From positions 620,001-684,000 of the forward strand of contig NC_014655.1 in the NCBI RefSeq assembly GCF_000166395.1: a DNA stretch of 64,000 nucleotides, in the 5' to 3' direction. This DNA comes from Leadbetterella byssophila DSM 17132. Lineage in GTDB: Bacteria > Bacteroidota > Bacteroidia > Cytophagales > Spirosomataceae. Made by a program: the position numbers and the translations under genes. A model generated the notes under the pieces. It was given only the letters and a program-made list of their open reading frames with translations. It was not told where the DNA came from and ran no database searches. Of the stretch, positions 1 to 60,338 are shown in pieces (positions within the stretch are counted from its first letter, which is position 1; every line of letters starts with the position of its first letter).

Positions 1-1414
1 TTTCCTCTGCCACGTGCATATCGAACTGCACGATGGGGAATCCCTTAGGGGGCATCTCGAGGGCGGAATAGGTAGTCAGGGGTTCTTCTGAGATCAGGAT
101 CCCACAGGCATGCATGCTGCGTTGGTTCGGGAATTTCTCCAGAAGACTGCCGTAAAAATGGATCTGCTGCACTACCGAGTTTTGGTCGTGAGTAGATTGG
201 GGAGAATTGGTCAAGACATCCAGCTCTTCTTTGGGTAAACCAAAGACTTTGCCTACTTCTCTCAGAATGGATCTGTATTTAAACTCTACGTTTGTGCCGC
301 AAAAGGCCACATGGTGCTTGCCGTACTTCTTGAAGATATAGTCCAAGATGATGTCGCGCTCTTTCCAACTCCAATCTATGTCAAAGTCGGGTGGCGACTT
401 ACGATTCAGGTTCAGAAAGCGCTCGAAATACAGGTCCAGTTCTATAGGACAGATGTTCGTGATGCCCAGGCAATAGCTGACTATACTGTTTGCCCCACTT
501 CCTCGCCCTATGTGCAGAAAACCTTGGGAGTTGCTGAACCTTACAATGTCCCAGGTGATCAGAAAGTAGCTGTTGAAACGGAGCGCGTGGATGACTTGAA
601 GTTCTTTTTTTAGTCGGGCGGAGGCTTCCGCGTTTTCCGTGCCGTACCTTTTTTCTAAGCCTTCGTAAGCGAGTTTTTCTAATAGTAGTCGGTCTTCCTC
701 CAAGGAAGAGGTGAAGTGCTTTTTGTTTTTTGGAGTTTTGAAATCAAATGAGAAAGAACATTGGTCTAAGATATATTGGGTGTTTTGAATGATCTGGGGA
801 TACTGTTTATACAGCTCCTTGAGTTCTTGTTCCGGGCGCATGTATTCGTGCGATTTACAGAAGTGGTCCAGTTTCGACAGGACCACATTTTTGTCTATGG
901 CTCGGAGGATACGGTGGAGTTGGTATTCGTTTTCGTCCCGAAAGGTCACGGGTGCCAAGACCACCATCCGGTCTAGGTAGGCCCGTAGCTCAGGGCGGAT
1001 GAGACTGTGGATCTCGTCCGGACGTATGCCCAGGTATTCCCGATTTCGGAGGGTAGGAGGGCAGTTTTCTAATGGATAAACCGTAAAGAGGTGTTTAAAC
1101 TCCGGAGCTATGGGCAGGAGAGGGGTACCTTCACAGTTGTGCTCCGTAAGCAGGGTGCAGATTTCCTTGATGCCTTGGGCATTTTGTGCCAAAGCGATGT
1201 ACAGCAATTGGTCCTCTTTTCGAACTTCCATGCCCACTACCGGCTTGATGCCGGCATCCTTGCAAGCTTTTTCGAAGTCATATATGCCCGTTACGGTGTT
1301 GATATCCGTTAGGGCAAGGGTTTTTACTCCGCAGCGTTTAGCTTCTGCGACGAGTTCCTCTAATGGAATGGTGCCGTAACGTAGGCTATGATAAGAATGG
1401 CAGTTGAGGTACAT
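1..1414 (-). CDS. dnaE: DNA polymerase III alpha-type (DnaE-like) polymerase, C-terminus cut by window edge
   Basis: C-family DNA polymerase; the first 471 codons are present and the reading frame runs open off the left edge. The N-terminus (from MYLNCHSYHS) is a PHP domain, and the active-site stretch PPDFDIDWSWKERD near residues 342-355 carries the catalytic aspartates of DnaE enzymes. The PHP metal site looks degenerate: where many DnaE2-type PHP domains have TDHN this protein has TDIN. The catalytic aspartates lie earlier than I would expect for the replicative enzyme (around residue 400 in E. coli DnaE), so this looks like a shorter, accessory DnaE. It lies on the same strand as the Y-family polymerase at 2150-3307, which points to translesion or damage-inducible synthesis rather than the replicative copy. 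That role is inference. The start was chosen because it is the only ATG at the beginning of the PHP homology, directly after the repeat array. Confidence 0.85.
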   Translation of the reverse strand, partial: MYLNCHSYHSLRYGTIPLEELVAEAKRCGVKTLALTDINTVTGIYDFEKACKDAGIKPVVGMEVRKEDQLLYIALAQNAQGIKEICTLLTEHNCEGTPLLPIAPEFKHLFTVYPLENCPPTLRNREYLGIRPDEIHSLIRPELRAYLDRMVVLAPVTFRDENEYQLHRILRAIDKNVVLSKLDHFCKSHEYMRPEQELKELYKQYPQIIQNTQYILDQCSFSFDFKTPKNKKHFTSSLEEDRLLLEKLAYEGLEKRYGTENAEASARLKKELQVIHALRFNSYFLITWDIVRFSNSQGFLHIGRGSGANSIVSYCLGITNICPIELDLYFERFLNLNRKSPPDFDIDWSWKERDIILDYIFKKYGKHHVAFCGTNVEFKYRSILREVGKVFGLPKEELDVLTNSPQSTHDQNSVVQQIHFYGSLLEKFPNQRSMHACGILISEEPLTTYSALEMPPKGFPIVQFDMHVAEE

Positions 1415-1468
1415 TTTGTGAGATTCTATATTTATTGTTTAGTCGTTCCACAGATCAGATGGTTCTTT

Positions 1469-2117
1469 GATCCGAAGCCCCTTTGTATACTCCTTCCGAA
1501 GCTCAACTTCGTTTTGATCCGAAGACCCTTTGTGTAGTCCATCTGAAGCTCAGCTCCGTTTTAGATCCGAAGACCCTTTGTGTAGTCCATCTGAAGCTCA
1601 ACTTCGTTTTGATCCGAAGACCCTTTGTGTAGTCCATCTGAAGCTCAACTTCGTTTTGATCCGAAGATCCTTTGTTTAGTCCATCTGAAGCTCAGCTTCG
1701 TTTTGATCCGAAGACCCTTTGTGTAGGCCATCTGAAGCTCAACTTCGTTTTGATCTGAAGAACCTTTGTATAGTCCATCTGAAGCTCAACTTCGTTTTGA
1801 TCCGAAGACCCTTTGTGTAGGCCATCTGAAGCTCAGCTTCGTTTTGATCCGAAGAACCTTTGTGTAGTCCATCCGAAGCTCAGCTTCGTTTTGATCCGAA
1901 GAACCTTTGTGTAGTCCTTCTGAAGGTCAGCTTCGTTTTGATCCGAAGAACCTTTGTGTAGTCCATCCGAAGATCAACTTCGTTTTGATCTGAAGACCCT
2001 TTGTATAGTCCATCTGAAGCTCAGCTTCGTTTTGATCCTAAGAACCTTTGTATAGTCCATCTGAAGCTCAGCTTCGTTTTGATCCGAAGAGCCTTTGTAT
2101 AGTCCTTCTGAAGGACT
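1469..2117. repeat. Tandem array of 47-bp hairpin units (13 full plus 1 partial)
   Basis: Unit starts, each marked by GATCCGAAG or a close variant, fall at 1469, 1516, 1564, 1611, 1658, 1705, 1752, 1799, 1846, 1893, 1940, 1987, 2034 and 2081. The period is 47 bp, with one 48-bp unit. Each unit contains GAAGCTCAGCTTC, a 6-1-6 palindrome, or a near variant of it. The commonest changes (CAGC to CAAC, CTTC to CTCC) become G-U wobbles if the minus strand is transcribed, so pairing survives in RNA from the dinB-to-dnaE direction. The last partial unit ends in a perfect hairpin, AGTCCTT-CTG-AAGGACT (2101-2117). The period is not a multiple of three, and the array is non-coding. It fills the gap between the two polymerase genes. 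Confidence 0.95.
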
Positions 2118-2149
2118 AGGCTGATTCCCTGTTGGATCTCTTCCTATGC

Positions 2150-3307
2150 TCATGTATGAGCCCTTTTTTTGATGAATCCTTCCGCTCGGATGACGGACTC
2201 GGGGCCAAAGCGATGTTTGATCTTGTCCATGGCTTGGTACAAGGACAGCATCTCTTCCGTGTCTTCAAATAATCGGATTTGTAGGTTTCCCCGGACCAGG
2301 CCGGTAAAGCGCACCCCTATGAGTCGGATACGCATACGCCTGTGGTAGAGTTTTTCAAACAAGTCCAATACGCAGGAGAGCAATACATGATCTGCAGAGG
2401 TATAAGGTACTCTGCATTGTTTGGTTTCCGTGTCAAAATTCGAATACCGGATCTTAACCGTGACGGTAGAGGTAAGCCAGCCTTCCTCGCGCAATTGGAA
2501 AGCCAACTTCTCCACCATGCCTGAAAGGACAGAACGGAGCAATTTTAAATCTATAGTATCTGTACCAAAGGTATTTTCGGTAGAGATAGACTTTCTTTCG
2601 GTATAAGGCTCCACCGGACTGTAATCTATTCCGTTCGCCTTCTTCCAAAGCTCAGCTCCATTCTTTCCTATCATCTGCTGAAGCACATCTACAGGCATTT
2701 CCGCCAAAGTGTGGATATAGCGTATGCCTATGCGGGAAAGGAGTCTGTAAGTAGCTTCCCCTAACATGGGAATCTTCTTGATGGAAAGAGGATTCAGAAA
2801 GGGCTTGATTCGGTCTTGAGGGATCTCTATCTTCCCGGCCGGTTTGGATTCCCCTGTACCTATTTTAGCTACCGTTTTGTTCACGGAAAGAGCGTAGCTG
2901 ACCGGCAAGCCTGTCTCCTTCTGTACTTTTTCCATGAGTTCCAGGGTCCACTTGGAAGCCCCGAAGAAGCGGTCTATGCCGCTGATGTCCAGATAGTGTT
3001 CGTCTATACTGGCTTTCTCTACTATAGGAGCACTGTCTTCTAGTACTTGGGTGACCAGAGAAGAGAGTTTAGAGTACTTCTCCATGTCTCCACGTATCAC
3101 CCGTGCATCCGGGCAGAGGCGTAGAGCCATTTTCATGGGCATAGCAGAATGTACTCCAAAGTACCGCGCTTCATATGAACAAGAGGCCACTACTCCTCGA
3201 TCCCCCCCGCCAATGATGACAGGTATACCTACTAGCTTACTGTTCTCCAAACGCTCACAAGACACAAAGAAGGTGTCTAAGTCCATGTGTACTATTATGC
3301 GATCCAT
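2150..3307 (-). CDS. dinB: Y-family DNA polymerase (DNA polymerase IV/DinB type)
   Basis: Translesion polymerase of 385 residues, normal for DinB/UmuC-family enzymes. The palm motifs are clear: HMDLDTFFVSCE gives metal-binding Asp9, and SIDEHYLD gives Asp102 and Glu103. The second Phe of DTFF (Phe14) sits at the steric-gate position. A helix-hairpin-helix stretch follows near residues 185-215, then the little-finger domain. The ATG at 3307 was preferred over an upstream in-frame ATG at 3346, because the family starts directly with this first beta strand and the upstream stretch contains the probable operator. A short hairpin (GCTCAT-GT-ATGAGC, 2148-2161) spans the stop codon. The gene is divergent from an S24 repressor and reads toward the DnaE-like polymerase, so the three genes look like one damage-response unit. 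Confidence 0.93.
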   Translation of the reverse strand: MDRIIVHMDLDTFFVSCERLENSKLVGIPVIIGGGDRGVVASCSYEARYFGVHSAMPMKMALRLCPDARVIRGDMEKYSKLSSLVTQVLEDSAPIVEKASIDEHYLDISGIDRFFGASKWTLELMEKVQKETGLPVSYALSVNKTVAKIGTGESKPAGKIEIPQDRIKPFLNPLSIKKIPMLGEATYRLLSRIGIRYIHTLAEMPVDVLQQMIGKNGAELWKKANGIDYSPVEPYTERKSISTENTFGTDTIDLKLLRSVLSGMVEKLAFQLREEGWLTSTVTVKIRYSNFDTETKQCRVPYTSADHVLLSCVLDLFEKLYHRRMRIRLIGVRFTGLVRGNLQIRLFEDTEEMLSLYQAMDKIKHRFGPESVIRAEGFIKKRAHT

Positions 3308-3327
3308 TTTGAAAAATTTTACGAAAA

Positions 3328-3346
3328 TTACTACGTTTTGTAGCAA
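3328..3346. promoter_or_regulatory. Palindromic operator candidate between dinB and the S24 repressor
   Basis: TTACTAC-GTTTT-GTAGCAA is an inverted repeat with 7-bp arms (one mismatch) and a 5-bp spacer. It lies 21 bp upstream of the dinB ATG and 33 bp upstream of the repressor ATG. The position and symmetry fit binding by a dimeric XRE-S24 protein controlling both directions. Binding is inferred. Confidence 0.6.
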
Positions 3347-3353
3347 TAGGTCT

Positions 3354-3361
3354 TATATTTG
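3354..3361 (+). promoter_or_regulatory. -7 promoter box of the S24 repressor gene
   Basis: TATATTTG matches the Bacteroidota -7 consensus TAnnTTTG exactly and predicts a leader of roughly 15 nt before the ATG at 3380. I see no well-spaced -33 TTG. The operator candidate occupies that region. Confidence 0.6.
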
Positions 3362-3379
3362 TTGTTATAAATTATAGCA

Positions 3380-4138
3380 ATGTCATTACTATCTGATAAT
3401 ATGCGGTTTCTGCGGGCCCGGATGGGGCTTTCGCAGCAGGCAGTGGCAGATGAGCTGATCATCACCCGGGGACGCTATGCTAAGTATGAGGACGGGATGT
3501 CTGAGCCTCCTATAGAGTTATTACTCAAGATCTCTCGCTTCTATAAGGTGAGTATAGACTTGTTGGTATCCGTTGATATTCGTAGGGTTCCGCTGGATGA
3601 ACTGCAGCAATTGCCGGATAACCGTATCCTGCTTCCTATAGTCGTGGATACGGAAGGCAGGAATAGGATAGAGATCATTCCGCATAAAGCCCGAATGGGG
3701 TATTTGTCAGGATATAGTGATCCGGAGTATATAGAGAGCTTACAGCATATATCCTTGCCTTTCCTTTCTCATGCGAAGTATAGGGCTTTCCCTGCTACCG
3801 GTGATTCCATGCCTCCCCATACAGAAGGCTCCTTTATCATAGGTAAATATGTTTCCTCCCGTGCAGATTTAAGAGTAGGTAAAACCTATGTTTTTTTGAC
3901 ACGGCAAGAGGGGATCTCTTATAAACGTTTAGGAGAGATTAAAGCCCACGGCTTAGTGCTACACTCGGATAACCCTTTTTACAAGCCTTTTGAAGTGGAG
4001 TATGCAGACCTATTGGAGATTTGGGAATTTGCCTGCAGTATAGCTACTCGGGAGAGTGATCCGGATGATCTTCCGGCTCAGACCATCAAAGAGATGTTAG
4101 TGGCCTTAAGAAAGGATATTCAAGCACTTCAAAAATAA
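3380..4138 (+). CDS. XRE-family HTH repressor with S24/LexA-like peptidase domain
   Basis: Predicted self-cleaving repressor of 252 residues. Residues 5-62 form a Cro/CI-type helix-turn-helix (MGLSQQAVADELIITRGRY). The C-terminal half is a LexA/UmuD-like S24 domain with Ser143 in ATGDSMPP and Lys182 in ISYKRL, the expected Ser-Lys dyad. The usual autocleavage bond in this class is Ala-Gly; at that place this protein reads KARMGYLSGY, so the bond would be Met106-Gly107. Whether it cleaves is open. The gene is divergent from dinB across 72 bp containing a palindrome, which suggests it represses dinB and itself and is released after RecA activation. Family membership is clear; the regulon is inference. 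Confidence 0.88.
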   Translation: MSLLSDNMRFLRARMGLSQQAVADELIITRGRYAKYEDGMSEPPIELLLKISRFYKVSIDLLVSVDIRRVPLDELQQLPDNRILLPIVVDTEGRNRIEIIPHKARMGYLSGYSDPEYIESLQHISLPFLSHAKYRAFPATGDSMPPHTEGSFIIGKYVSSRADLRVGKTYVFLTRQEGISYKRLGEIKAHGLVLHSDNPFYKPFEVEYADLLEIWEFACSIATRESDPDDLPAQTIKEMLVALRKDIQALQK

Positions 4139-4159
4139 AAAATTACCGTTAACAAGAAC

Positions 4160-4186
4160 AGGCACTAGGGCAAGTGCCTACCTTTG
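4160..4186 (+). promoter_or_regulatory. Hairpin plus -7 box upstream of the MFS gene
   Basis: AGGCACT-AGGGCA-AGTGCCT (4160-4179) is a perfect 7-bp hairpin that runs directly into TACCTTTG (4179-4186), an exact TAnnTTTG box, 19 bp before the MFS start. A T-run follows at 4193-4201. It could be the repressor gene's terminator, an operator over the MFS promoter, or both. Confidence 0.5.
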
Positions 4187-4205
4187 CAAGCTATTTTTTT
4201 TCGCA

Positions 4206-5399
4206 TTGATAAAGTACTATATAGATTCATTTCGAGGCCTCAGTAAGGAGGTCTGGATGTTGGCCCTCGTTATTCTGATCAACCGTACTTCCGCCATGGT
4301 AGTCCCCTTCCTGGGCGTATACATGACGCAGGCCTTAGGCTTCAGTCTGAAAGAGACAGGTGTGGTTTTGAGCTTTTTCGGAATGGGGGCTGTGTTAGGT
4401 TCGTATGTGGGTGGCCGACTGACCGATATTTTCGGATTTTACAGTACGCAGTTGTATAGCTTCCTTTTGACTATCCCCATCTTCATGATTTTGCCGGAGT
4501 TAAAAACGGTGTATTCTTTGTCTATAGGGGTCTTTGTTTTGAGTGCGGTGGCGGATGCGTTCCGACCAGCCAACTCCGTAGCTTTGTCCTATTATACCCC
4601 TCAGGAAAAGATCACTAAGGCTTTTTCTTTGAACCGTATGGCCGTGAACTTAGGATTTTCTATTGGGCCGGCTTTGGGCGGTTTTTTGGCCGGTTTTTCT
4701 TACCATTGGCTTTTTTATGGAAATGCTCTTGGGGAATTACTAGCCTCTATCCTCTTTGTTTATTATTTCAAAAGTAGGATGCCTAGGCATCAGAAAAAGG
4801 AGAGATCGGTTTTAAAGTCGGTAGAATCTCCGTATAAGAACCTGAGAATGCTGGCATTCACATTTCTCTGTGCCTTGTATGCCATTTGTTTCTTCCAGTT
4901 GTTGAATACTTTGCCTCTATATTATAAGACGGAGCATCAGTTGACAGAATTCCAGATAGGGGTGATCCTAGGTTACAGTGGTTTGTTCATCGTTTTGTTT
5001 GAAATGCTGATCGTACAAATAGCCGGAAAGGTGATGAGTATATCCCAAATTATCATCTTGGGGACTTTGCTCTGCGGTCTGGCTTTCGTGGTCTTAAACT
5101 TGAGCTTCACGCATGTGATGTTATATATAGGCATCAGTATTCTTTGTGTTTCTGAGATCTTGGCCATGCCGTATATGTCTACGGTATATGTTCAAGAGTC
5201 TTCTGAGCATAATAGAGGGGCTTACATGGGTATGTATTCTTTGGCCTTCTCTGTAGCGCATATCTTCTCCCCATACTTGGGTACTTTCATAGTGGAGAAG
5301 CAAAGTTTTGAGGTGCTTTGGTACCTCACAGGTTTGGCTTCCTTGGGTATAGCATTTGGATTTTATATGCTTATGAAGAAGAGAGTAAGTGCACACTAG
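4206..5399 (+). CDS. MFS transporter
   Basis: Twelve-helix major facilitator of 397 residues in the inner membrane. The sequence is hydrophobic throughout, with a loop 2-3 signature near residues 65-78 (GSYVGGRLTDIFG) that matches the MFS GxxxDRxG-type motif. The substrate cannot be told; the sequence looks like the drug/metabolite permease branch rather than a sugar symporter. The start is TTG at 4206. No in-frame ATG exists upstream, and the next one (4257) would remove the FRGLSKEVW segment that precedes helix 1 in relatives. Its stop lies one base from the stop of the convergent gene, leaving no room for a separate terminator. It has its own TACCTTTG promoter box. Confidence 0.85.
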   Translation: MIKYYIDSFRGLSKEVWMLALVILINRTSAMVVPFLGVYMTQALGFSLKETGVVLSFFGMGAVLGSYVGGRLTDIFGFYSTQLYSFLLTIPIFMILPELKTVYSLSIGVFVLSAVADAFRPANSVALSYYTPQEKITKAFSLNRMAVNLGFSIGPALGGFLAGFSYHWLFYGNALGELLASILFVYYFKSRMPRHQKKERSVLKSVESPYKNLRMLAFTFLCALYAICFFQLLNTLPLYYKTEHQLTEFQIGVILGYSGLFIVLFEMLIVQIAGKVMSISQIIILGTLLCGLAFVVLNLSFTHVMLYIGISILCVSEILAMPYMSTVYVQESSEHNRGAYMGMYSLAFSVAHIFSPYLGTFIVEKQSFEVLWYLTGLASLGIAFGFYMLMKKRVSAH

Positions 5400-5400
5400 C

Positions 5401-6255
5401 CTACCATTCTTTCAGTACCTTTTCTAATCCGGGATGTACGGAATAGAGGACTTGGTTTAGTTCTTCATCTGGAAGTAGGGTTTTAAGGGATAGTAATGTG
5501 TTCCAAAGTTTCTTTACTCCTTCTTCTCCTATGGAATCGTAGATATCACCTGCTTTGGCGTGAAATTGGCATTGGTACCAACCGTAATTGTCGGGATGCT
5601 GGGTTCCAAGTTCATTGTACTTCTCGTCAAAGTCTTTTAGGGCGGTGTATTTTAGTCGGTCAGGAGGAAAAGCTTCAATATTTGATTTTGCAAACACTAA
5701 GATGTTGGGGATTCTTTCTTTGTGATTCTCTGCCAGGTAAGTATGAAGGAGAATATTGCAAAGGAGTTCGTTTAACCAGTTTCTTTGCTTGACCATGCCT
5801 GCTTTTTGTTGGTATACATGACCTAGTTCATGGATGGCCAGTAGATCAAACGCAGACATGAGAGAGGGAGGGTTTCCGTAGGTTTCTTTCATCTGTTTTG
5901 CGCTTTCTTGTGAAAGCCTATCCAGGGAAGGAGTATTTCTTTTCCAGAAGATATTATCCTCAGCTGCTACTATGAGTTGGCCCTTGCCATTGTAGTGAGG
6001 CATGCCGTAGATAATTTGGGGATGCGCATATTTTTTCCAGTCTTCAGGAGATAATACGTACAATTGGTATTCGGGTTGTACTCCCATCCATGAGTTGAAG
6101 TATTGATCCGCTTTTTGGAGTTCTTCCTGAATGCTAATGGCTCTGTTCTTAGCGTTTGCACTATGCCAAGCTACGGTTTGCCCTAATTGCATTAATGATT
6201 CCTGTGCTAAGCAGGCTTGAGATAAAAATAAACTGATGATGAGGAGTGGTTTCAT
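5401..6255 (-). CDS. Secreted protein with HExxH (gluzincin-like) metal site, function unknown
   Basis: 284 residues beginning with a clear Sec signal peptide (MKPLLIISLFLSQACLAQ, cleavage near residue 18), so exported to the periplasm or beyond. Residues 142-146 read HELGH, followed 17 residues later by Glu163 in LNELLCN. This is the spacing of a gluzincin zinc peptidase (HExxH plus a downstream Glu), and a zinc-dependent peptidase activity is therefore plausible. I do not recognise a named family. There is no C-terminal sorting domain for type 9 secretion. It lies 58 bp downstream of the GH65 gene on the same strand and may be co-transcribed with it, though the functions show no obvious link. 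Confidence 0.7.
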   Translation of the reverse strand: MKPLLIISLFLSQACLAQESLMQLGQTVAWHSANAKNRAISIQEELQKADQYFNSWMGVQPEYQLYVLSPEDWKKYAHPQIIYGMPHYNGKGQLIVAAEDNIFWKRNTPSLDRLSQESAKQMKETYGNPPSLMSAFDLLAIHELGHVYQQKAGMVKQRNWLNELLCNILLHTYLAENHKERIPNILVFAKSNIEAFPPDRLKYTALKDFDEKYNELGTQHPDNYGWYQCQFHAKAGDIYDSIGEEGVKKLWNTLLSLKTLLPDEELNQVLYSVHPGLEKVLKEW

Positions 6256-6313
6256 GTGGCTTTTGTTATGGTTACGATATGAAGTTAGGGGAAATAGTCT
6301 GAATTTTAAGTGG

Positions 6314-8518
6314 TTATATGTTTTTTATCTCAAACCTCTCATTCTCTATTCTAATCCTTTTAACTCCTTCCACAGTGCGAAAGCTAAATGAAAGTGATTT
6401 CCAGTGAGATGGTAAGTTAGGTTTAGCTTCTACTTGCGTCCCTCTGACCTTTAGTCCTGCAAATCCTTTTACTACAGATAACCAGGTTCCGGCCATGGAA
6501 GTGATGTGGAGCCCGTCTTCTGTATCCTGATTGTAATTATCCAGATCTAAGCGGGACGTTCTCAAGTACATTTCGTAGGCTTTGTCTATTTGTCCTATTC
6601 TGCATGCCAAAATGGAGTGCACGCAGGGGGAGAGAGAGGATTCATGAACGGTCATGGGTTCATAGAAATCAAAATTCCTTTTTACGGTTTCCAGATCAAA
6701 ATCCTCTTCGAAGAAATAAATGCCTTGTAGTACATCCGCTTGCTTAATAAAGCAGGACCTTAGGATCCTATCCCACGACCATTTTTGATTGATAGGGCGA
6801 TGTTCCTTGATCTGATCCACGTTCAACAGTTCCTTGTCTAGGAACCCGTCTTGCTGTAGAAATACCATTCTGTTCTGATCATAGGGAAAATACATTTGAT
6901 CTATGATAGCTTGCCATTTTTCTGTTTTGTCCACCTGTTTTTTGTATTTCTTAATACATTCCAAAGTGTACTTTAAGGTCCAAACGGCTATGTAGTTCGT
7001 GTACCAATTGTTATTTACGTTGTTTTCATATTCATTGGGACCTGTAACACCCAGTATGACATAGGCTTTTTTCGCATCTGACCATTGAACTCTTTGCTCC
7101 CAGAATCGAGAAATAGCTACCAGTACTTCCCACCCGAACTCTTTTACATAGTTCTCGTCTCCCGTGTAGCGGGTATAATCATAGATGGCATAGGCTATGG
7201 CTCCGTTTCTGTGTATCTCTTCGAAGGTGATTTCCCATTCGTTATGGCATTCCTCTCCATTCATGGTCACCATGGGGTACAGGGCTGCTCCATCACTAAA
7301 GCCTAATTTCTCAGCATTTTCTATGGCTTTGGGGAGCTGTCTGTACCGGTACATCAGCAGGTTCTTTGCTACCGAAAAATCACAAGATGAAAGGTAGAAA
7401 GGAATGCAATAGGCCTCAGTGTCCCAGTAGGTTACTCCTCCATATTTTTCACCTGTGAACCCTTTCGGCCCTATGTTCAAACGGGCGTCTTTTCCATTGT
7501 AGGTTTGTAGAAGATGGAATATATTGAAACGGATACCTATTTGTGCTGAAAGATCTCCCTCAATTTGTATGTCTGCCTCCTCCCAAGCTTTTTCCCAAGC
7601 CTGGATATGATCTTCTTCCAGATGTGCCGGTGCTTGTATTAAGGCATTCTCTGTATAAGAATAAAGGTTTTCCGCCTTATGGTCCAAGGTATGGGAAATG
7701 ACCACGGTTTTGGTTAAGGAAATGCTGTCCCCATCCTGAGCAGGAACGTCAAAATGATGAAAGGCCCTCATGCTTTTAATTTCTTCCAAGGGTTCGATAA
7801 GAGTGCCGTTTTGTGTGCAGGAATTCTTCATTCCTACGCCTACCTGATATTGAGGAACCTCGAATGGGTTGGGTTTGGTTTTAACTTGGACATAGCCCAT
7901 TTCATGGTCAGCCATCTGAAATACTTCTTCCCAGAAATGTTCGTCGTGATTGCTGTCCTTATTGCGTACAACTCCGTTGAGGTAGGAGGAAAGTCGAACC
8001 TTCCCTGAGAGGTTTTCTAAACGGATTTCGTAATGGATTTGTGCGAAATGGGGACTGTCTACAGAGCAGAATCTTCTGGAAGAGATATGCAGATATTTCC
8101 CCTCTTCCCATTCTATTTTGCAGGTTTTAGAAAGTATGCCCGTTTTTAGGTTTAGTTCTCTATAGAATGAGGTAAATCTACAAGTGCCTAGGTCAAGGAT
8201 TTTGCCATTTATTGCTAAATTGATACCTATCCAGTTGACCGAGTTGATGACCTTAGCAAAGTAATCCGGATAACCGTTTTTCCACCAGCCAACTCTCGTC
8301 TTGTCCGGAAACCAAATCCCACCGATATAGGAACCAGGAAGACTAGGGCCGGTAAAACTCTCTTCAAAGTTTCCTCTTAATCCAAATTTACCGTTGCCCA
8401 GGGACATGATACTTTCAGTGACTTCATTTTTATCTACATGAAAATGATCTTCCCAAATTTTCCAATCGTCGTGTTTTAAGTAGGTTTCCATTTCAAGCAT
8501 TTTTCTCAAACCTAGCAT
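6314..8518 (-). CDS. Maltose phosphorylase-type glycoside hydrolase family 65 enzyme
   Basis: Cytoplasmic phosphorylase of about 730 residues, a normal GH65 length. It splits maltose (or a related alpha-glucobiose) with phosphate to glucose and beta-glucose 1-phosphate. GH65 blocks are well kept: GVTYWDTEAY (361-370), the catalytic-acid region CHNEWEITFEEIHRNGA (425-440), and VTGPNEYENNVNNNWYTN, which is the maltose phosphorylase form rather than the trehalose or kojibiose form. No signal peptide. Three ATGs lie close together (8518, 8500, 8491); the last (METYLKHDDW) matches the usual family start best, so the first nine residues are doubtful. The product beta-G1P needs a beta-phosphoglucomutase, and one is encoded at 11843-12481. 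Substrate choice among disaccharides is inference. Confidence 0.88.
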   Translation of the reverse strand: MLGLRKMLEMETYLKHDDWKIWEDHFHVDKNEVTESIMSLGNGKFGLRGNFEESFTGPSLPGSYIGGIWFPDKTRVGWWKNGYPDYFAKVINSVNWIGINLAINGKILDLGTCRFTSFYRELNLKTGILSKTCKIEWEEGKYLHISSRRFCSVDSPHFAQIHYEIRLENLSGKVRLSSYLNGVVRNKDSNHDEHFWEEVFQMADHEMGYVQVKTKPNPFEVPQYQVGVGMKNSCTQNGTLIEPLEEIKSMRAFHHFDVPAQDGDSISLTKTVVISHTLDHKAENLYSYTENALIQAPAHLEEDHIQAWEKAWEEADIQIEGDLSAQIGIRFNIFHLLQTYNGKDARLNIGPKGFTGEKYGGVTYWDTEAYCIPFYLSSCDFSVAKNLLMYRYRQLPKAIENAEKLGFSDGAALYPMVTMNGEECHNEWEITFEEIHRNGAIAYAIYDYTRYTGDENYVKEFGWEVLVAISRFWEQRVQWSDAKKAYVILGVTGPNEYENNVNNNWYTNYIAVWTLKYTLECIKKYKKQVDKTEKWQAIIDQMYFPYDQNRMVFLQQDGFLDKELLNVDQIKEHRPINQKWSWDRILRSCFIKQADVLQGIYFFEEDFDLETVKRNFDFYEPMTVHESSLSPCVHSILACRIGQIDKAYEMYLRTSRLDLDNYNQDTEDGLHITSMAGTWLSVVKGFAGLKVRGTQVEAKPNLPSHWKSLSFSFRTVEGVKRIRIENERFEIKNI

Positions 8519-9101
8519 TTTTTTTCTTAACCTTTTATGAGCGAGTATATTTTGGACTCATTCTCGCTTAATTTTTTGAGAACGGTGGAACTTTGGACAG
8601 TACGCATTGTAATAATCTAGTTTTATAGTATCTGGCAGCCTTTTAAAACCTTCATAGGAAGTTATTTCTAATCACCTTACTTTTTGCCTCTCACTGAAAA
8701 CTGGCGATTATAGATTTGGTACCCCTTCATTTTTTTTCTTGTTTTATTGACAAAAAATTACTAACTTAATAGTATGTACCTGCTTAAAATTCAAGCAAGT
8801 GCATAAACCTAAGGTATAGTTTTTGGGGTATTACTACCCTTTTACTTCCTCTGTTCCGGACAGGTATAATTAGTTAAAGGATATTTTCTGCAATGTAGCT
8901 TACTATTCAAAGATCTTCCTAAGTTGATCATTGCTGAGGAATGGTGGAATTTCCTACTGCACTGAAATTCGTTTCCCCGCCCTTTTTTTGCACGATACGG
9001 TGCGTTCCACCTAATTTTACGCCTTGGTTTTTAGCCCCATCTCTGCAAACGTTCTCGGTAATATTTTGATTATTAGTCGAAGTAGACCTCTGTGCCTAAC
9101 G
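8519..9101. other. 583-bp intergenic region between divergent GH65 and pectinesterase genes
   Basis: No open frame of note and no tRNA-like fold seen. Near the GH65 end is an inverted repeat AGCGAG (8540-8545) / CTCGCT (8563-8568) with a 17-bp spacer, a possible operator or leader hairpin for GH65. Near the other end TGCAAACGTT (9044-9053) resembles half of a LacI-type operator. Both are weak calls. Confidence 0.4.
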
Positions 9102-11547: not shown

Positions 11548-11842
11548 TGGTCAAATGGCTAATTTTCCAATTTATCTACGATGATAGGGAGCAAGGGTTC
11601 TTGCTTTACGCTATAAATGGATGAAAGTTTGTGCAGTTATCAGTACCTGCAATTTCCCTGTTTTGTGGTTAATAGAGCTTATGTAAATGAGAGCCAAAGT
11701 TTCCTGATATGTCTTGAATTAGGAGGTCTTTCCTTAGCGATTTATTTATATTCAAACCGAAGATACTAACGTTCGTCTTGCTACAAATAAAAGTAAATGA
11801 AACCTTCTATACGCCTCTTATCCTTTTGGTACAAAAAAGTCT
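11548..11842. other. Intergenic region between convergent GH43 and beta-PGM genes
   Basis: 295 bp, AT-rich, with no convincing gene, RNA fold or strong terminator. It holds an isolated AACGTT hexamer at 11768-11773, noted only because a similar one occurs at 9048-9053. Confidence 0.4.
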
Positions 11843-12481
11843 TTAAAGTGGGTCTAAGATAAACTGTTCAGGATCCTGTCCCTCAAATCCCGATATCATT
11901 TCATCTGCCTTCTCTAAATCTCCTACACCTACAGCATACATTCCTGCAGCTAAAGCCGCTTCAATTCCGGCTTCCGCATCTTCGAATACTACGCATAGGG
12001 CAGGGGATAGTTGTAGGGTTTTCGCCGCCAATAGGAAAACCTCCGGATCAGGCTTACCCTTGCTGATTTGATTTCCGTCGATGATGACTTGAAAGTAATC
12101 CTTGATTTCTGTAAGTGTTAAAATGGCGACGGCATTCTTACTAGCTGATCCCACCGCCATAGGAATTTTCAATTGTTTTGATTTTTCAAGAAATGCGAGC
12201 ACTCCCGGCAAAACATCTGCTTTTGTCATCTTTTGAACCCTGGCTAAGTAGTTTTGATTTTTTTGTTCTGCCCAACTAAGCTTTTGATCAGAAGATGCAT
12301 CTATATTTCCTTTTTGAAGGATTTTTTCCAGTGATTCCATTCTACTTACTCCCTTGAGTGTTTCGTTAAAGGTCTCATCCATATCAAAACCTAAGTCTCT
12401 AGCTAATTCGCGCCAAGCTTCGAAATGAAATTTGGCCGTATCAACGAGTACTCCATCCAGATCAAATATAAATCCACTCAT
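11843..12481 (-). CDS. pgmB: Beta-phosphoglucomutase (HAD superfamily)
   Basis: Converts beta-glucose 1-phosphate to glucose 6-phosphate, linking maltose phosphorylase to glycolysis. 212 residues, normal for the family. HAD motif I is FDLDGVLVD, with nucleophile Asp7 and acid/base Asp9; the next conserved segment TAKFHFEAWRELA belongs to the cap. Motif II is VGSASKN, the KGKPDPEVF stretch carries the motif III Lys, and motif IV is FEDAEAGIEAA. The ATG at 12481 was chosen: an in-frame extension to 12628 is possible but would run through the divergent GH13 start and has no family counterpart. It is divergent from GH13 with 68 bp between the start codons, a likely shared control region. Confidence 0.92.
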   Translation of the reverse strand: MSGFIFDLDGVLVDTAKFHFEAWRELARDLGFDMDETFNETLKGVSRMESLEKILQKGNIDASSDQKLSWAEQKNQNYLARVQKMTKADVLPGVLAFLEKSKQLKIPMAVGSASKNAVAILTLTEIKDYFQVIIDGNQISKGKPDPEVFLLAAKTLQLSPALCVVFEDAEAGIEAALAAGMYAVGVGDLEKADEMISGFEGQDPEQFILDPL

Positions 12482-12549
12482 TTTTTGTAAGTTTACCCCT
12501 CTAAGATAGTTATTCTTAACGTAAAAGTTTGGAGAAGGTTTAGTAGTAT

Positions 12550-14175
12550 ATGGATAAAATAGCGGTTTACCAACTGTTTTTACGTGTTTTCGCCAATAAA
12601 AATACGAACAATACAATTTACGGAACATTAGAACAAAACGGAACCGGGAAGTTTAATGACATTAATGAGGAGATTCTAGACGCTTTAAAATCCTTTGGGA
12701 TTACGCACATCTGGTATACTGGGGTGATTGAACATGCTACCCTAGTGAATTCTGAAGATCATCCACAAATAGTGAAGGGCATAGCCGGTTCTCCCTATGC
12801 CATAAAAGATTATTATGATGTGAATCCTTATTTGGCGGAGGATCCTTCGAATAGGATGGGAGAGTTTGAGGCATTGGTGCGAAGAACACATGCAAAAGGT
12901 CTAAAGGTCTTGATCGATTTTGTACCCAATCATGTGGCTAGGCAGTATCGTTCAGATCAAAAACCTGAAGGGGTAAAGGACTTTGGGGAAGATGATGATA
13001 GCACTTTAGCTTTTCACCCCCAGAATAATTTTTACTATCTACCAAATAAGCCCTTCGTAGTTCCGGACGGAGTACATCCTCCAGTAGCTTTTTTAGATCC
13101 TTACACAGAATTTCCTGCAAGGGCCACAGGAAACGATGTGTTCTCAGAAGCACCAAGCATTAATGACTGGTTTGAGACTGTCAAATTGAATTACGGAGTA
13201 GATTACCTGGATGGAAGAAAGGGTTACTTTGATCCTATCCCTGATACCTGGAATAAGATGCTGGACATTTTGCTATTTTGGGCCGGCAAGGGCGTGGATG
13301 GTTTTCGGTGTGATATGGCAGAAATGGTGCCGGCTGAATTTTGGCATTTTGCCATAAATAAGGTGAAAGAAAAGTATCCTCAGACCATATTTATTGCTGA
13401 GATATATAATCCCCAATTGTATAGGTATTTCCTTGATTTTGGAGGGTTTGATTATCTGTATGATAAGGTGGGTCTATATGATGCCTTGAGACGACTCATA
13501 GAGGGTCATGGTGATGCTATGGATATCACACGCGTTTGGCAGAGGGAATCCGGCGACTTTTCCTCTAGGATGCTACGTTTTCTGGAGAATCATGATGAGC
13601 AGAGAATCGCATCTGACTTCTTTGCCGGTAATGCAGAAAAAGCTTTTCCTGCCATGATGCTAGCGGCTACCTTACATACGGGGCCGGTGATGATCTATGG
13701 AGGACAGGAATTTGGCGTTAAACCGGAAAGGGCAGAAGGCTTTCAGGGGAATGATGGTAGAACCACGATCTTTGATTTCTGGGGACTGCCTGAGCTACAA
13801 GAATGGCTAAAGGGAGGACAAAGCATGGAGAAAGCTAATGTACGGCACTTTTATGAGCGTATGTTACACTTTATTCGTGACAATGAAGCCGTACATTCAG
13901 GGCATTTTCATGACCTGCAATATTTGAATCATTACAATACCCATCAGATTTATTGTTACTTTCGATATACGGAGAATCAGATCTTGCTCTTTGCCTATAA
14001 TTTTGGTAAGGAGGAAGAATTTGATGTTCAGTTGCCTGAATACCTATTACCGTCCGCTCAGTTAATGTACATGCCTGTCTTTCATGTGGGCTCAATAGCG
14101 GAGGGAGGATCGAAAGTGAAGGTTTATTTAGGAGAGAATAGCTTTAAGATTTGGCAGGTTTATGCTGCCGAATAG
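12550..14175 (+). CDS. Cytoplasmic alpha-amylase family (GH13) enzyme
   Basis: Alpha-glucan-active enzyme of 541 residues with the four GH13 regions intact: DFVPNH (123-128), GFRCDMAE with nucleophile Asp255, FIAEIYNP with acid/base Glu284, and LENHDEQR with Asp349. No signal peptide, so it works in the cytoplasm on imported malto-oligosaccharides. Together with GH65 and beta-phosphoglucomutase this gives a complete path: longer maltodextrins to maltose, maltose to glucose plus beta-G1P, then glucose 6-phosphate. The exact activity (alpha-glucosidase, maltogenic amylase, cyclomaltodextrinase) is not decidable here. It is divergent from pgmB. Confidence 0.88.
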   Translation: MDKIAVYQLFLRVFANKNTNNTIYGTLEQNGTGKFNDINEEILDALKSFGITHIWYTGVIEHATLVNSEDHPQIVKGIAGSPYAIKDYYDVNPYLAEDPSNRMGEFEALVRRTHAKGLKVLIDFVPNHVARQYRSDQKPEGVKDFGEDDDSTLAFHPQNNFYYLPNKPFVVPDGVHPPVAFLDPYTEFPARATGNDVFSEAPSINDWFETVKLNYGVDYLDGRKGYFDPIPDTWNKMLDILLFWAGKGVDGFRCDMAEMVPAEFWHFAINKVKEKYPQTIFIAEIYNPQLYRYFLDFGGFDYLYDKVGLYDALRRLIEGHGDAMDITRVWQRESGDFSSRMLRFLENHDEQRIASDFFAGNAEKAFPAMMLAATLHTGPVMIYGGQEFGVKPERAEGFQGNDGRTTIFDFWGLPELQEWLKGGQSMEKANVRHFYERMLHFIRDNEAVHSGHFHDLQYLNHYNTHQIYCYFRYTENQILLFAYNFGKEEEFDVQLPEYLLPSAQLMYMPVFHVGSIAEGGSKVKVYLGENSFKIWQVYAAE

Positions 14176-56378: not shown

Positions 56379-57851
56379 CTATTTTTCTTTCGAATCCTCA
56401 TGAAATTGCATTTTACTTGCACTTTCTAAGAGAGGTTCTGCTGGCTTCCTTTTGCTTCTATATCCTAAAATTTTCAACATAGACTCTTCTGTCTGCTCAT
56501 CAGCAAAGAGTTCAGTAGTTATATTTCCATTCTCATCTCTGTCTATCAATACATGTTTAGGTGCTGGGATTAGACAGTGTTGTATTCCACCATATCCTCC
56601 TAAACTTTCTTGGTAAGCACCGGTATGGAAGAATCCTATATACTGATCATTCTTTTCATCAATGATAGGCATATATAAATCCTCAGAATGAGATTCTGTA
56701 TTGTAATAATCTGCTGAATCACAGGTTAATCCTCCTAGATTGACCTTGGTGTATGGTGCATCCCAGTTATTGATAGGAAGCATGATGTACTTTTGTCCTA
56801 TACCCCAAGAGTCAGGAAGCTGAGTGATGAATGATCCATCAATCATGTACCAAAGCTCTCTGTCGTTCTGCTGCTTTTGATCAATGATCTTATATAGTAT
56901 AGCTCCACTTTCTCCTACTGTATAACTTCCGAATTCAGTAAAGATGTTAGGAACGGGTACATTGTTCTTGTGACAGATCCACTGAATGTTCTCAATGATT
57001 TCATCCACCATAGCCTGGTAGTCGAAATTATAAACTACGGATGTCTGAATAGGCATACCTCCACCGATGTCTATGGAGTCTAATTCAGGACAGATGCGTT
57101 TCATTTCACAGTATTTGAACATGAAACGAGTTAGTTCCGACCAATAGTAAGCTGTATCCTTAATACCTGAGTTGATAAAGAAATGGAGCATTTTTAATTT
57201 GAAACGCTCATCCGGTTTGATCTTTTTCAGGTACAAGTCATCTACGTCTTTGTAGCGGATACCAAGACGAGAGGTATAGAAAGAGAAGGTAGGTTCCTCA
57301 TCTGTAGCGATACGGATTCCTATATTCACATGATCTGCTGTAACATTCTCCAGATAATGATCTATTTCATCCAGATTGTCGAGAATAGGAGTACAGTTAA
57401 CAAATCCTTGATTGATGAGATTAGTAATATTCTTTAGATACTGAGGCATCTTATGTCCATTACATATCACATAAGTGTCTTTAGTGATCTTTCCTTCTTC
57501 ATACAAAGTCTCAATAAGAGGAATGTCAAATGCAGAAGATGTTTCCAAATGGATATTATGCTTTAACGCCGTATCCAAGATGAATTTAAAGTGCGAAGAC
57601 TTCGTACAATAACAGTAGGTATAATTCCCTCTGTAATTGTATTTCTTCATGGCATTCTTAAAGAGAATTTTAGAATGCTCTATGTGCTCACCAATCTTAG
57701 GAAGGTAGCTGATCCGTAGGGGAGTCCCGTACTTTCGGATCACATCCATCAGAGGTACGTTATTAAATAAAAGATTATTTTGGGCATCTACACCAAATTC
57801 CCGAGTAGGAAATTCAAACGTCTGCTGTATTAAATCGATGTACCTCTTCAT
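56379..57851 (-). CDS. Arginine decarboxylase (biosynthetic, fold type III PLP)
   Basis: Decarboxylates arginine to agmatine for polyamine synthesis. 490 residues, alanine-racemase-like barrel followed by a beta domain. PLP Lys84 lies in YCYCTKSSHF, and the glycine-rich phosphate loop is SIDIGGGMPI. The acidic cluster and Cys in LGGLTCDSADYYN near residue 370 complete the family pattern. It belongs to the short-form ADC found in Bacteroidota rather than the 630-residue SpeA of enterobacteria. The other polyamine enzymes are not in the window. Substrate specificity is by homology. Confidence 0.86.
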   Translation of the reverse strand: MKRYIDLIQQTFEFPTREFGVDAQNNLLFNNVPLMDVIRKYGTPLRISYLPKIGEHIEHSKILFKNAMKKYNYRGNYTYCYCTKSSHFKFILDTALKHNIHLETSSAFDIPLIETLYEEGKITKDTYVICNGHKMPQYLKNITNLINQGFVNCTPILDNLDEIDHYLENVTADHVNIGIRIATDEEPTFSFYTSRLGIRYKDVDDLYLKKIKPDERFKLKMLHFFINSGIKDTAYYWSELTRFMFKYCEMKRICPELDSIDIGGGMPIQTSVVYNFDYQAMVDEIIENIQWICHKNNVPVPNIFTEFGSYTVGESGAILYKIIDQKQQNDRELWYMIDGSFITQLPDSWGIGQKYIMLPINNWDAPYTKVNLGGLTCDSADYYNTESHSEDLYMPIIDEKNDQYIGFFHTGAYQESLGGYGGIQHCLIPAPKHVLIDRDENGNITTELFADEQTEESMLKILGYRSKRKPAEPLLESASKMQFHEDSKEK

Positions 57852-57991
57852 TCGCCTTTTGCCTGCTGCTTTTAGAATTTAAAAAGTCGTGCAAAATTGA
57901 TATATTTTTTACAACTTTGCAAAGGAAATAACGGGTTCTTACTGCTCACATTTTGCAGTTCTTAGAAAATATCATTAGCATTTAATTTTTC

Positions 57992-59350
57992 ATGAATAAA
58001 GTCCATTTTATAGCTGTCGGTGGGGCAGTTATGCATAATCTTGCGTTAGCATTGCAGAGTAAAGGTTTTGAGGTTACGGGATCAGACGATGAAATCTATG
58101 AGCCGGCTTTGTCCAGATTGCAGCATGCAGGCATTTTGCCTCCGGATTTTGGTTGGTTTCCTGATAAAATCCATACTGGATTAGATGCAGTAATTTTGGG
58201 TATGCATGCCCGAAAGGACAATCCTGAACTTCTGAGAGCTCAGGAATTAGGGATAAAAGTGTATTCTTTTCCTGAATATGTTTATGAACAAAGCAAGGAT
58301 AAAAAACGTGTAGTCATAGCTGGTAGTCATGGGAAAACTTCCATTACAAGTATGATCCTGCATGTACTTGCTTACTATAAGAAGGATTTTGACTATTTAG
58401 TAGGGGCTCAGATCGAAGGTTTTGATCTCATGGTGAGACTAAGTCATTCAGCACCTATCATGGTCATAGAAGGGGACGAATACTTGGCCAGTGCTTTGGA
58501 TTTAAGATCTAAGTTCTTGTTCTATAAGCCCCATATTGCTCTAATCAGTGGAGTAGCCTGGGATCATTTTAATGTATTTCCAAAGTACGAAGATTATACA
58601 GGCACCTTTAGTAAACTTGCAGACAGTATTGAGCGACCAGGCGTCTTGCTTTATGATAAGACTGACGCAGATGCTGCTAAATTAGGAAGCGTTCCGAGGG
58701 AAGGAGTAGAAGAGATTCCATATGAAGCTTATCCTTATAAGGTGGAAGAAGGCAAGGTTTTTGCTTTAACGCCTAAAGGAGAAGTGGGATTAGAGGTCTT
58801 TGGAGAACACAATTTGAAAAACCTGAATGGAGCACGAATCATTTGCGAGAAATTAGGTATATCTGAGGATGAGTTCTTTGCGGCCATTGCCAGCTTTAAA
58901 GGTGCAGCAAAACGTCTCGAAACCGTAGCACATTCTGATTTGACCCACGTATTCAGAGATTTTGCACATGCACCTTCAAAAGTGAATGCTACTACTAAGG
59001 CGGTGAAAGAATTATACGGAGATCGTCCCTTAGTGGCAGCGTATGAATTGCATACTTATTCCAGCTTAAACAAAGACTTTTTACCTCACTATGCAGATAC
59101 TTTAGAAGCGGCAGATACTGCCATAGTTTTCTTCTCTCCTCACACGCTTGAGATGAAGAGGATGCCGGCCTTAGATGCGGAGGAGATCAAGAAGTTCTTT
59201 AATAGAGAAGACCTTTTAGTATATACGGATTCCCTTGCTTTACAAGAATACCTGAAGAAACAAGATTGGAAAAACAAGAACCTATTACTGATGTCTTCCG
59301 GTACCTTTGGTGGCATGGATTTTAAGGAGTTTGGAAATTCTCTTTTATAA
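57992..59350 (+). CDS. mpl: UDP-N-acetylmuramate ligase-like protein (Mpl type)
   Basis: Mur ligase fold of 452 residues. It starts with a Rossmann-like domain (HFIAVGGAVMHNLALALQ), followed by the ATP P-loop VIAGSHGKTSITSM (111-117) and the central catalytic block AHAPSKVNATTKAVKE. The family is either MurC or the recycling ligase Mpl, which joins UDP-MurNAc to a recovered tripeptide; start and overall pattern fit Mpl. Peptidoglycan recycling in the cytoplasm. Divergent from arginine decarboxylase, and its end overlaps the convergent GT9 gene by 29 bp. Confidence 0.85.
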   Translation: MNKVHFIAVGGAVMHNLALALQSKGFEVTGSDDEIYEPALSRLQHAGILPPDFGWFPDKIHTGLDAVILGMHARKDNPELLRAQELGIKVYSFPEYVYEQSKDKKRVVIAGSHGKTSITSMILHVLAYYKKDFDYLVGAQIEGFDLMVRLSHSAPIMVIEGDEYLASALDLRSKFLFYKPHIALISGVAWDHFNVFPKYEDYTGTFSKLADSIERPGVLLYDKTDADAAKLGSVPREGVEEIPYEAYPYKVEEGKVFALTPKGEVGLEVFGEHNLKNLNGARIICEKLGISEDEFFAAIASFKGAAKRLETVAHSDLTHVFRDFAHAPSKVNATTKAVKELYGDRPLVAAYELHTYSSLNKDFLPHYADTLEAADTAIVFFSPHTLEMKRMPALDAEEIKKFFNREDLLVYTDSLALQEYLKKQDWKNKNLLLMSSGTFGGMDFKEFGNSLL

Positions 59351-60338
59351 TATTAAGTACCTTTTCTGGGGAGATTTGCTCTAAACAAGCATAATCTCCT
59401 CTTTTACAAGGTTCTTTACCAAATACGGAGCATGGCCTGCATGTAAGTTCCGCTCTAGATATTTCTATCTTAGTATTTTGATACAAAGGACCAAATCCTA
59501 ACATGCTGTGAGTTGCTCCCCAAATGGAATAGACCTTGGTTCCAGATAAACACCCAAAATGTAGATTAGAAGTATCTCCACTGATCAGGAAATCTAATTT
59601 TGAGATTAATTCCAGTTCCTCCTCCAAACTAAAAAGTCCCACGGTATTATATACCCGTTCTGAAACCATTTGATCTAAGAGTTCTTTTTCTCTTTTTCCT
59701 CCACCAAGGAGTAGGATGTTATACTTAGGGTAGGCATTTTTAAGTTTTGGAACAAAGTCCAAATACTTTTCAAAAGGCCAAATTTTACCTTTATGTTGGG
59801 CAAACGGAGCAATGCCTATATAAGGAGGCTGGATCTCCCAGTTTTTGATCTTTTGCTGTGTAGCTTCTGTAGTAGTAAAGGCAGGGAGTGCAATTTCCCT
59901 GGCCGTGGATATGCCAGCAGAGGTAAACACATCTCGGTACTGCTCCGTAACATGTTTAACCGGTGTACTAGATTTGCCTTTAATGATGTCCTTTTTTTCT
60001 TTTCTGTGCTTATCTAATGTGTAGCACTTTTTACCTAGGAAATAGGTCTTTAAGGCAAAAGTCCTAAGGTTTTGGTGGAGATCAAGTATATAATCGGGCT
60101 GGTATTCAGTAAGCTCTTTATACAATCTGTAAAGGCCAAATGGCCCTTTGTGCTTACTTTCAAAATGACACTCGTGGACCTTGATTCTTTCTTCGTTTTG
60201 AAAAAAGGCGGAGAACTTGGGGCGTGTGACCATGATCACACGCAAATCAGGATTTTCTTTGAGTGCCCATTTGATAGGAAGAAGTGTTAATGCCACATCT
60301 CCCATAGCAGAGAATCTGAATACCAGCGCCGTTTTCAT
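59322..60338 (-). CDS. Glycosyltransferase family 9 (heptosyltransferase-like)
   Basis: 338 residues, cytoplasmic GT-B fold. The start MKTALVFRFSAMGDVALTLL is the GT9 N-terminal nucleotide-sugar loop, and the C-terminal donor region includes FLISGDTSNLHFGCLSG and SIWGATHSMLGFGP. Likely adds a heptose or similar sugar to lipopolysaccharide core, by family. Last gene of the thr operon, overlapping DUF4254 by four bases. Four Cys near the C-terminus (CRPCSVFGKEPCKRGDYAC) form a small cluster of the sort that can hold a metal. Confidence 0.87.
   Translation of the reverse strand: MKTALVFRFSAMGDVALTLLPIKWALKENPDLRVIMVTRPKFSAFFQNEERIKVHECHFESKHKGPFGLYRLYKELTEYQPDYILDLHQNLRTFALKTYFLGKKCYTLDKHRKEKKDIIKGKSSTPVKHVTEQYRDVFTSAGISTAREIALPAFTTTEATQQKIKNWEIQPPYIGIAPFAQHKGKIWPFEKYLDFVPKLKNAYPKYNILLLGGGKREKELLDQMVSERVYNTVGLFSLEEELELISKLDFLISGDTSNLHFGCLSGTKVYSIWGATHSMLGFGPLYQNTKIEISRAELTCRPCSVFGKEPCKRGDYACLEQISPEKVLNIIKENFQTP

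Follow-up and report, generated by a model that had tools for sequence, protein, structure and literature searches.

A single-locus 47-bp tandem repeat array between dinB and dnaE2 in a probable SOS polymerase operon of Leadbetterella byssophila

The dinB-dnaE2 locus and its repeat array

The window analysed here, the whole stretch of 64,000 nucleotides at positions 620,001 to 684,000 of contig NC_014655.1 of L. byssophila DSM 17132, contains near its start two polymerase genes that lie on the minus strand. The upstream gene, dinB (2150–3346), is an open reading frame with domain matches to the IMS domains of Y-family polymerases, and comparison with relatives places its likely start at an ATG at about 3307. 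Downstream of it is the 5′ part (1–1414) of a dnaE2-type polymerase III alpha gene, likewise recognised from its open reading frame and domain matches, which is intact (1014 aa) with its remainder outside the window. A gene with HTH and S24 peptidase domains is divergent from dinB (3380–4138, plus strand), and its role as a LexA-like regulator is assigned from the published account of such proteins (PMC8565304). In the Bacteroidetes SOS response LexA-like regulators act through palindromes such as CTAA-N5-TTAG, and a polymerase III alpha gene and a dinB homologue often form one operon (PMC8565304), with DnaE2 paired with a Y-family polymerase (PMC6511836). The L. byssophila locus is alike in gene content, and we note by eye the palindrome CTAC-AAAAC-GTAG at 3331–3343, which has the dyad form of that motif and is a candidate operator of the S24 regulator. 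We infer that dinB and dnaE2 are damage-induced, and together they probably constitute an SOS polymerase operon. The array between the two genes is a feature of L. byssophila that goes unmentioned in the available portions of these accounts (PMC8565304, PMC6511836).

The entire gap between dinB and dnaE2, defined on the minus strand from the open reading frame list and the locus comparison, is 735 nt long (1415–2149). Tandem Repeats Finder reports an array at 1466–2113 with a period of 47, 13.8 copies, 91% matches, 0% indels and a score of 1042, the remaining three rows in the 64-kb window scoring only 51–53. Alignment of the units is in agreement and gives 13 full units at 1465–2076, 12 of 47 nt and one of 48 nt, with a mean column identity of 93%. 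The partial, diverged unit adjoining dinB (minus strand, 2077 to about 2113–2118), located by unit reading and a search for inverted pairs, has 11 differences from the consensus and includes a perfect palindrome, TAGTCCTTC-T-GAAGGACTA, at 2100–2118, for which a hairpin is predicted in the transcript. At the dnaE2 end there is a degenerate unit remnant at about 1435–1465, identified by 71% identity over 24 nt and by reading of the sequence. A sequence-only reading of this DNA had described fourteen units, 13 of them full, at 1469–2117, with a nearly constant 47-bp period and a self-complementary core in nearly all of them; its boundaries are correct to within a few bases, the period holds, and the five core pairs are kept in 11 of the 13 full units, wobbles counted.

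The array has the head-to-tail copies and the unit of tens of bases by which prokaryotic minisatellites are recognised. A CRISPR array was considered and rejected, as the whole 47-bp unit is conserved at that column identity and there are no variable spacers. A coding array was also rejected: there is no open reading frame of at least 60 aa fully within 1415–2149, and stop-free runs in the gap extend to no more than 62 codons on the minus strand and 53 on the plus strand. Divergence among the 13 is greatest in the unit at the dnaE2 end, which has 7 differences from the consensus versus 1–4 in the others, and a most diverged unit at the array end is usual for arrays homogenised from within. The similarity of neighbouring units does not significantly exceed that of random pairs (0.22; 0.03 at lag two), and thus gives no direct support for a history of growth. 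The genome is a finished 454 Titanium and Illumina assembly; single reads of that assembly were probably shorter than the array, and the exact copy number is therefore uncertain.

Distribution of the array and variation at the junction

A search of the 4,059,653-base single-contig genome with the full array finds one place only. Two degenerate patterns allowing up to three mismatches have all of their genome matches (12 of 12 and 14 of 14) inside the array, and a covariance model of the unit has 14 matches of 46–79 bits, all in the array, the 10 further genome matches having E values of 0.97 or worse. A dispersed repeat family was rejected, since every above-chance match in the L. byssophila genome lies inside the array; the genome-wide search for the unit that the sequence-only reading had proposed therefore reveals a single locus and no scattering. 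Among 10 genomes of the genus, a DNA search finds the array in that of L. byssophila only. The covariance model has matches at E values of 0.01 or less in 28 of 150 family genomes, L. byssophila included, and the other 27 have one or two matches each at 19.5–28.4 bits, compared with 46–79 in the array. Nine of these 27 were inspected with Tandem Repeats Finder, which finds no comparable array in their 3-kb loci, and six alignments of such matches show gaps, mismatched stem pairs or skipped parts of the model. We judge all 27 to be chance matches, from the nine inspected and with a model whose calibration was short. Phages and plasmids have model matches at E values of 3 or worse only, a search of viral contigs with one core pattern finds no match, Rfam has no match at the curated threshold in window positions 1–6000, and with the terms searched in the open-access literature we recognised no publication describing this array.

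The dinB-dnaE2 junction was compared in a selection of best matches comprising 111 rows, which are 79 named loci (from the best 80 of 522 matches), 30 loci from genomes of the family (150 searched, of which 75 matched and the best 30 were kept), L001 and the window. A dnaE2 start is found downstream of dinB in 109 of them; the other two, L098 and L100, are stretches of ~4.1 kb, too short to call absence. Three of the 109 are this very locus, and the L082 row probably comes from the L002 genome. The gap has a median of 3 nt, a 75th percentile of 12 and a 90th of 139, and the maximum of 735 nt among the 109 rows is that of L. byssophila. In L002, a Leadbetterella MAG with a DinB 84% identical and the nearest relative among those fetched, dinB and dnaE2 overlap by 11 nt and the array is absent. 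Because the L002 genes overlap and those of most relatives lie within a few nucleotides of each other, the long gap of L. byssophila is, on this comparison of sequences, a derived state.

Gaps of at least 30 nt are present in 22 of the 106 rows from relatives, and by eye their contents bear no likeness to the 47-bp unit. L072 has a 9-bp repeat in the gap and L076 has repeats based on 7 bp, the gaps of L045 and L085 contain hairpins, and that of L108 contains a HigB-like toxin gene with an HTH partner. The unrelated contents of these 22 gaps indicate that the junction tolerates insertions in several lineages, and this tolerance weighs against a special role for the L. byssophila array. We also note that in L108 the HigB-like gene and its HTH partner, on the opposite strand, occupy 2752–3339, and that the L110 gap is equally long; in a comparison of this junction alone, it seems to collect insertions in several Bacteroidota lineages.

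Other arrays were sought in a 464-kb sample of the genome, consisting of 20 stretches of 20 kb and the window. A second long array cluster, with units of ~300 bp, is present at L125 between open reading frames of at least 150 aa, and the dinB-dnaE2 junction is thus not the only place with a long intergenic array. These intergenic clusters of L125 (L. byssophila 2800001–2820000) are at 4350–6496, 7815–8630 and 11589–12902 of that stretch, and the ~300-bp tandem units contain 65-bp sub-repeats. Long arrays are also present in L113 and L123, their coding or non-coding status aside. In another family genome, L106 has at 331–670 about 3.3 units of 103 bp (or 51–52 bp) with self-complementary stretches, at the same locus as its dinB and outside its dinB-dnaE2 gap, which is 2 nt.

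Predicted RNA fold and changes among the units

On the minus strand, which is that of the transcript, most units are predicted to form two short hairpins. The 735-nt gap has a fold z of −6.43 on this strand (0 of 20 shuffles equal) and of −0.80 on the plus strand (4 of 20 equal). The array-level value is weak proof because it counts one unit 14 times, and we rejected it as proof of selection on the grounds of this pseudo-replication, which unit-level shuffles reveal. Tandem copies of a shuffled unit fold equally well in 0.048 of shuffles for the minus strand and in 0.212 for the plus strand; for a lone unit these fractions are 0.133 and 0.490, and with two other variants of the unit they are 0.045 and 0.265 (minus) and 0.280 and 0.885 (plus). 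In these models the unit-level fold excess on the minus strand is marginal.

Comparison of the units was restricted to the 13 full ones, the partial unit at 2077–2118 being left out of the alignment and of the covariation, core-hairpin and substitution tests, and the extra base of the 48-nt unit being left out of the substitution tests. Covariation among units is within the range of shuffles: one pair is changed on both sides, in 2 cells, a level that 399 and 121 of 500 shuffles attain, and 97 of 500 attain the covariation score; in the core hairpin no pair is changed on both sides. The stems cover 24 of the 47 positions and hold 8 of the 14 variable columns and 10 of the 17 distinct changes, and are as variable as the rest of the unit.

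The energetic effects of the 17 single changes differ between the strands. With the majority unit as ancestor, their mean on the minus strand is −0.21 kcal/mol, a value reached by 0.010 of null sets, versus +0.48 ± 0.31 for type-matched random changes, and on the plus strand +0.84 versus +0.60 ± 0.44 (0.70); for kept stem pairs the fraction is 0.077. With five ancestors and two energy measures, the minus-strand fractions are 0.011, 0.019, 0.038, 0.039, 0.084, 0.079, 0.213, 0.149, 0.041 and 0.055. When the whole array is compared with 240 relocations, the fractions are 0.267 (minus) and 0.762 (plus), with 0.029 for the strand difference, the five substitution-test fractions being nominal values, uncorrected for multiplicity. 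There is thus a hint, from modelled energies and dependent on the ancestor chosen (0.01 to 0.21), that the minus-strand fold is less affected by changes in the unit than by random ones.

According to the sequence-only reading, most core changes keep pairing as G-U wobbles only on the minus strand, pointing to selection on an RNA structure. The first of these claims stands in part, in that the four distinct changes in the 5-pair core are two minus-strand wobbles and two mismatches, but when the closing pair is added (78 cells) the plus strand has more wobbles, with 10 and 8 mismatches compared to 6 and 12 on the minus strand. A C to T wobble change is common to 6 of the 13 units, with the wobble formed in 5, and may represent one event. 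The claim of selection is supported in part: it draws on the better minus-strand fold and on changes that are milder than random, as well as on the position of the array between genes of one strand and on the absence of copies elsewhere in the genome, where scattering had been set as a refuting result; it finds nothing in the covariation or in the stems, which vary as the rest does, and little in the whole-array test or the marginal unit-level fold.

Origin of the array and its possible effects on expression

There is no exact TANNTTTG box in the gap (1415–2149). A scan of 1300–3500 for sigma-70-type promoters gives two sites, compared with a mean of 2.7 in shuffles; the site at 1404–1432, which is on the plus strand, overlaps the gap. 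The same region has 10 terminator-like sites (shuffles mean 2.0), all on the plus strand and 8 of them within the array, so that none of those found is an intrinsic terminator (hairpin and U run) on the transcript strand; as for a Rho signal, the gap RNA, with 146 C to 176 G, shows no C-over-G bias. With neither such a box nor a transcript-strand terminator in the gap, a single transcript from the dinB promoter is the simplest inference, and from gene order one transcript would cross the array. The last 40 bases of the dnaE2 leader are 30% G+C with a predicted mean pairing of 0.34, compared to 0.56 in the neighbouring array, and the dnaE2 start carries an A at −3, a base that promotes initiation in Flavobacterium johnsoniae (PMC6847099).

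We favor, with a probability of about 0.6, the explanation of a lineage-specific minisatellite, enlarged by replication slippage or unequal recombination, which broke a close dinB-dnaE2 junction. This reading is based on the 735-nt gap where the median is 3 nt and L002 has an 11-nt overlap, on the insertions that the junction tolerates in relatives, on the single genomic locus, on the position of the most diverged unit at the dnaE2 end, on the marginal unit fold with covariation at shuffle level and stems as variable as the rest, and on the presence of another long intergenic array in the 464-kb sample. The tendency of changes to spare the minus-strand fold (0.010) and the whole-array strand difference (0.029) argue against it. 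A damage-induced transcript would start at the dinB promoter, cross the array and continue into dnaE2, and with the close junction lost dnaE2 must be translated independently; the array would thereby uncouple dnaE2 translation from that of dinB, with dnaE2 initiating alone at its A-rich leader. The RNA would fold into a ladder of short hairpins, which might shield the dinB mRNA from 3′-end decay or alternatively reduce read-through, both being more tentative suggestions, and any such effect would be a side effect rather than the reason for the existence of the array. Its copy number would be expected to be variable and largely tolerated. Our confidence that the array does more than separate dinB and dnaE2 is weak.

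The main rival is that the array is a selected RNA element, in which the two hairpins of each unit build a ladder that sets the polymerase ratio by protecting dinB mRNA and lowering dnaE2. We consider this possible and rather doubtful. It would account for the strand difference in the fold of the gap and for unit changes that on the minus strand alone are milder than random ones (0.011–0.213 over the five ancestors and two measures), and in the galE region of E. coli an intercistronic hairpin does stop 3′–5′ decay (PMC9239205), by analogy with which the ladder could favor dinB mRNA. These points have to be set against a unit-level fold that 0.048 of shuffles equal in tandem and 0.133 alone, the covariation within shuffle range, the 10 of 17 changes in stem positions, the whole-array null of 0.267, and the failure to find a homologous array in the relatives searched. 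A further idea, which we regard as quite improbable, is a self-tuning mutability switch, with hairpin number in the SOS transcript setting the DinB:DnaE2 ratio and slippage promoted by these error-prone polymerases altering repeat number; if true, lineages would shift their mutation rate up or down via repeat number.

The remaining explanations concern the DNA or the opposite strand. It is improbable that the minisatellite was brought in by a miniature inverted-repeat element, even though there is a Bacteroidetes precedent for a minisatellite within a MITE in BrickBuilt of Porphyromonas gingivalis (PMC4596501): the element is single-copy in the genome, and among the 25 of 27 inverted pairs viewed at 1380–2200 (pairs of at least 8 nt) none joins the array flanks. 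The minus-strand unit motif CACAAAGG(G/T)TCTT does resemble the 12-nt terminal inverted repeat CACAAAGGTCTT of BrickBuilt_6 (PMC4596501) with one inserted base, a likeness that may be chance. Very improbable in our view is that the plus-strand units are weak intrinsic terminators that halt antisense transcription entering via dnaE2 from a convergent gene; the 8 terminator-like sites in the array and a plus-strand open reading frame that ends 23 bases before the dnaE2 3′ end would fit, but the sites are one motif repeated, with stems of 5–6 pairs and tails of TTTTG or similar, and the plus-strand fold is not exceptional. We give least credence to a DNA-level array of protein-binding sites, for example for a LexA-like regulator, for although the constant 47-bp spacing and invariant blocks are of that kind, the consensus unit by eye has no CTAA-N5-TTAG-like site, and such a palindrome sits between the regulator and dinB instead.

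We conclude that the array is real and confined to a single locus, a lineage-specific minisatellite that lies in what is probably an SOS polymerase operon. It resembles the prokaryotic intergenic satellites in being a head-to-tail, constant-unit array in an intergenic place, and some species have unique, unrelated satellites (PMC6749651); it differs from those surveyed in splitting a nearly gapless polymerase junction and in having a unit that can fold into hairpins, and Leadbetterella is not named in the portion of that survey available (PMC6749651). BrickBuilt is also a Bacteroidetes intergenic array of short direct tandem repeats whose copy number varies, but it is multi-copy, with a leader, a tail, terminal inverted repeats and a 23-nt unit (PMC4596501), whereas the L. 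byssophila array is at one locus, with a 47-bp unit and no flanking inverted repeats found. REP and BIME sequences are intercistronic palindromes, with REPs dispersed over the genome. They are alike in being hairpin-forming repeats in a probable operon gap, and a similar effect of the L. byssophila array on mRNA stability could be envisaged by analogy; unlike them, the L. byssophila unit is present at one place only.

The locus provides a natural example of two closely adjoining SOS polymerase genes that have been separated, in a single lineage, by a large block of repeats. Should the array alter the polymerase ratio, the number of repeats would influence mutation supply; if it has no such effect, the array together with the 22 long-gap rows of relatives would indicate that a tight dinB-dnaE2 junction is dispensable. 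We also note that in Chryseobacterium shandongense a similarly ordered set of dnaE, dinB and a LexA-family gene is found on plasmid NZ_CP033916.1, at 56952–60022, and thus the cassette can be mobile.
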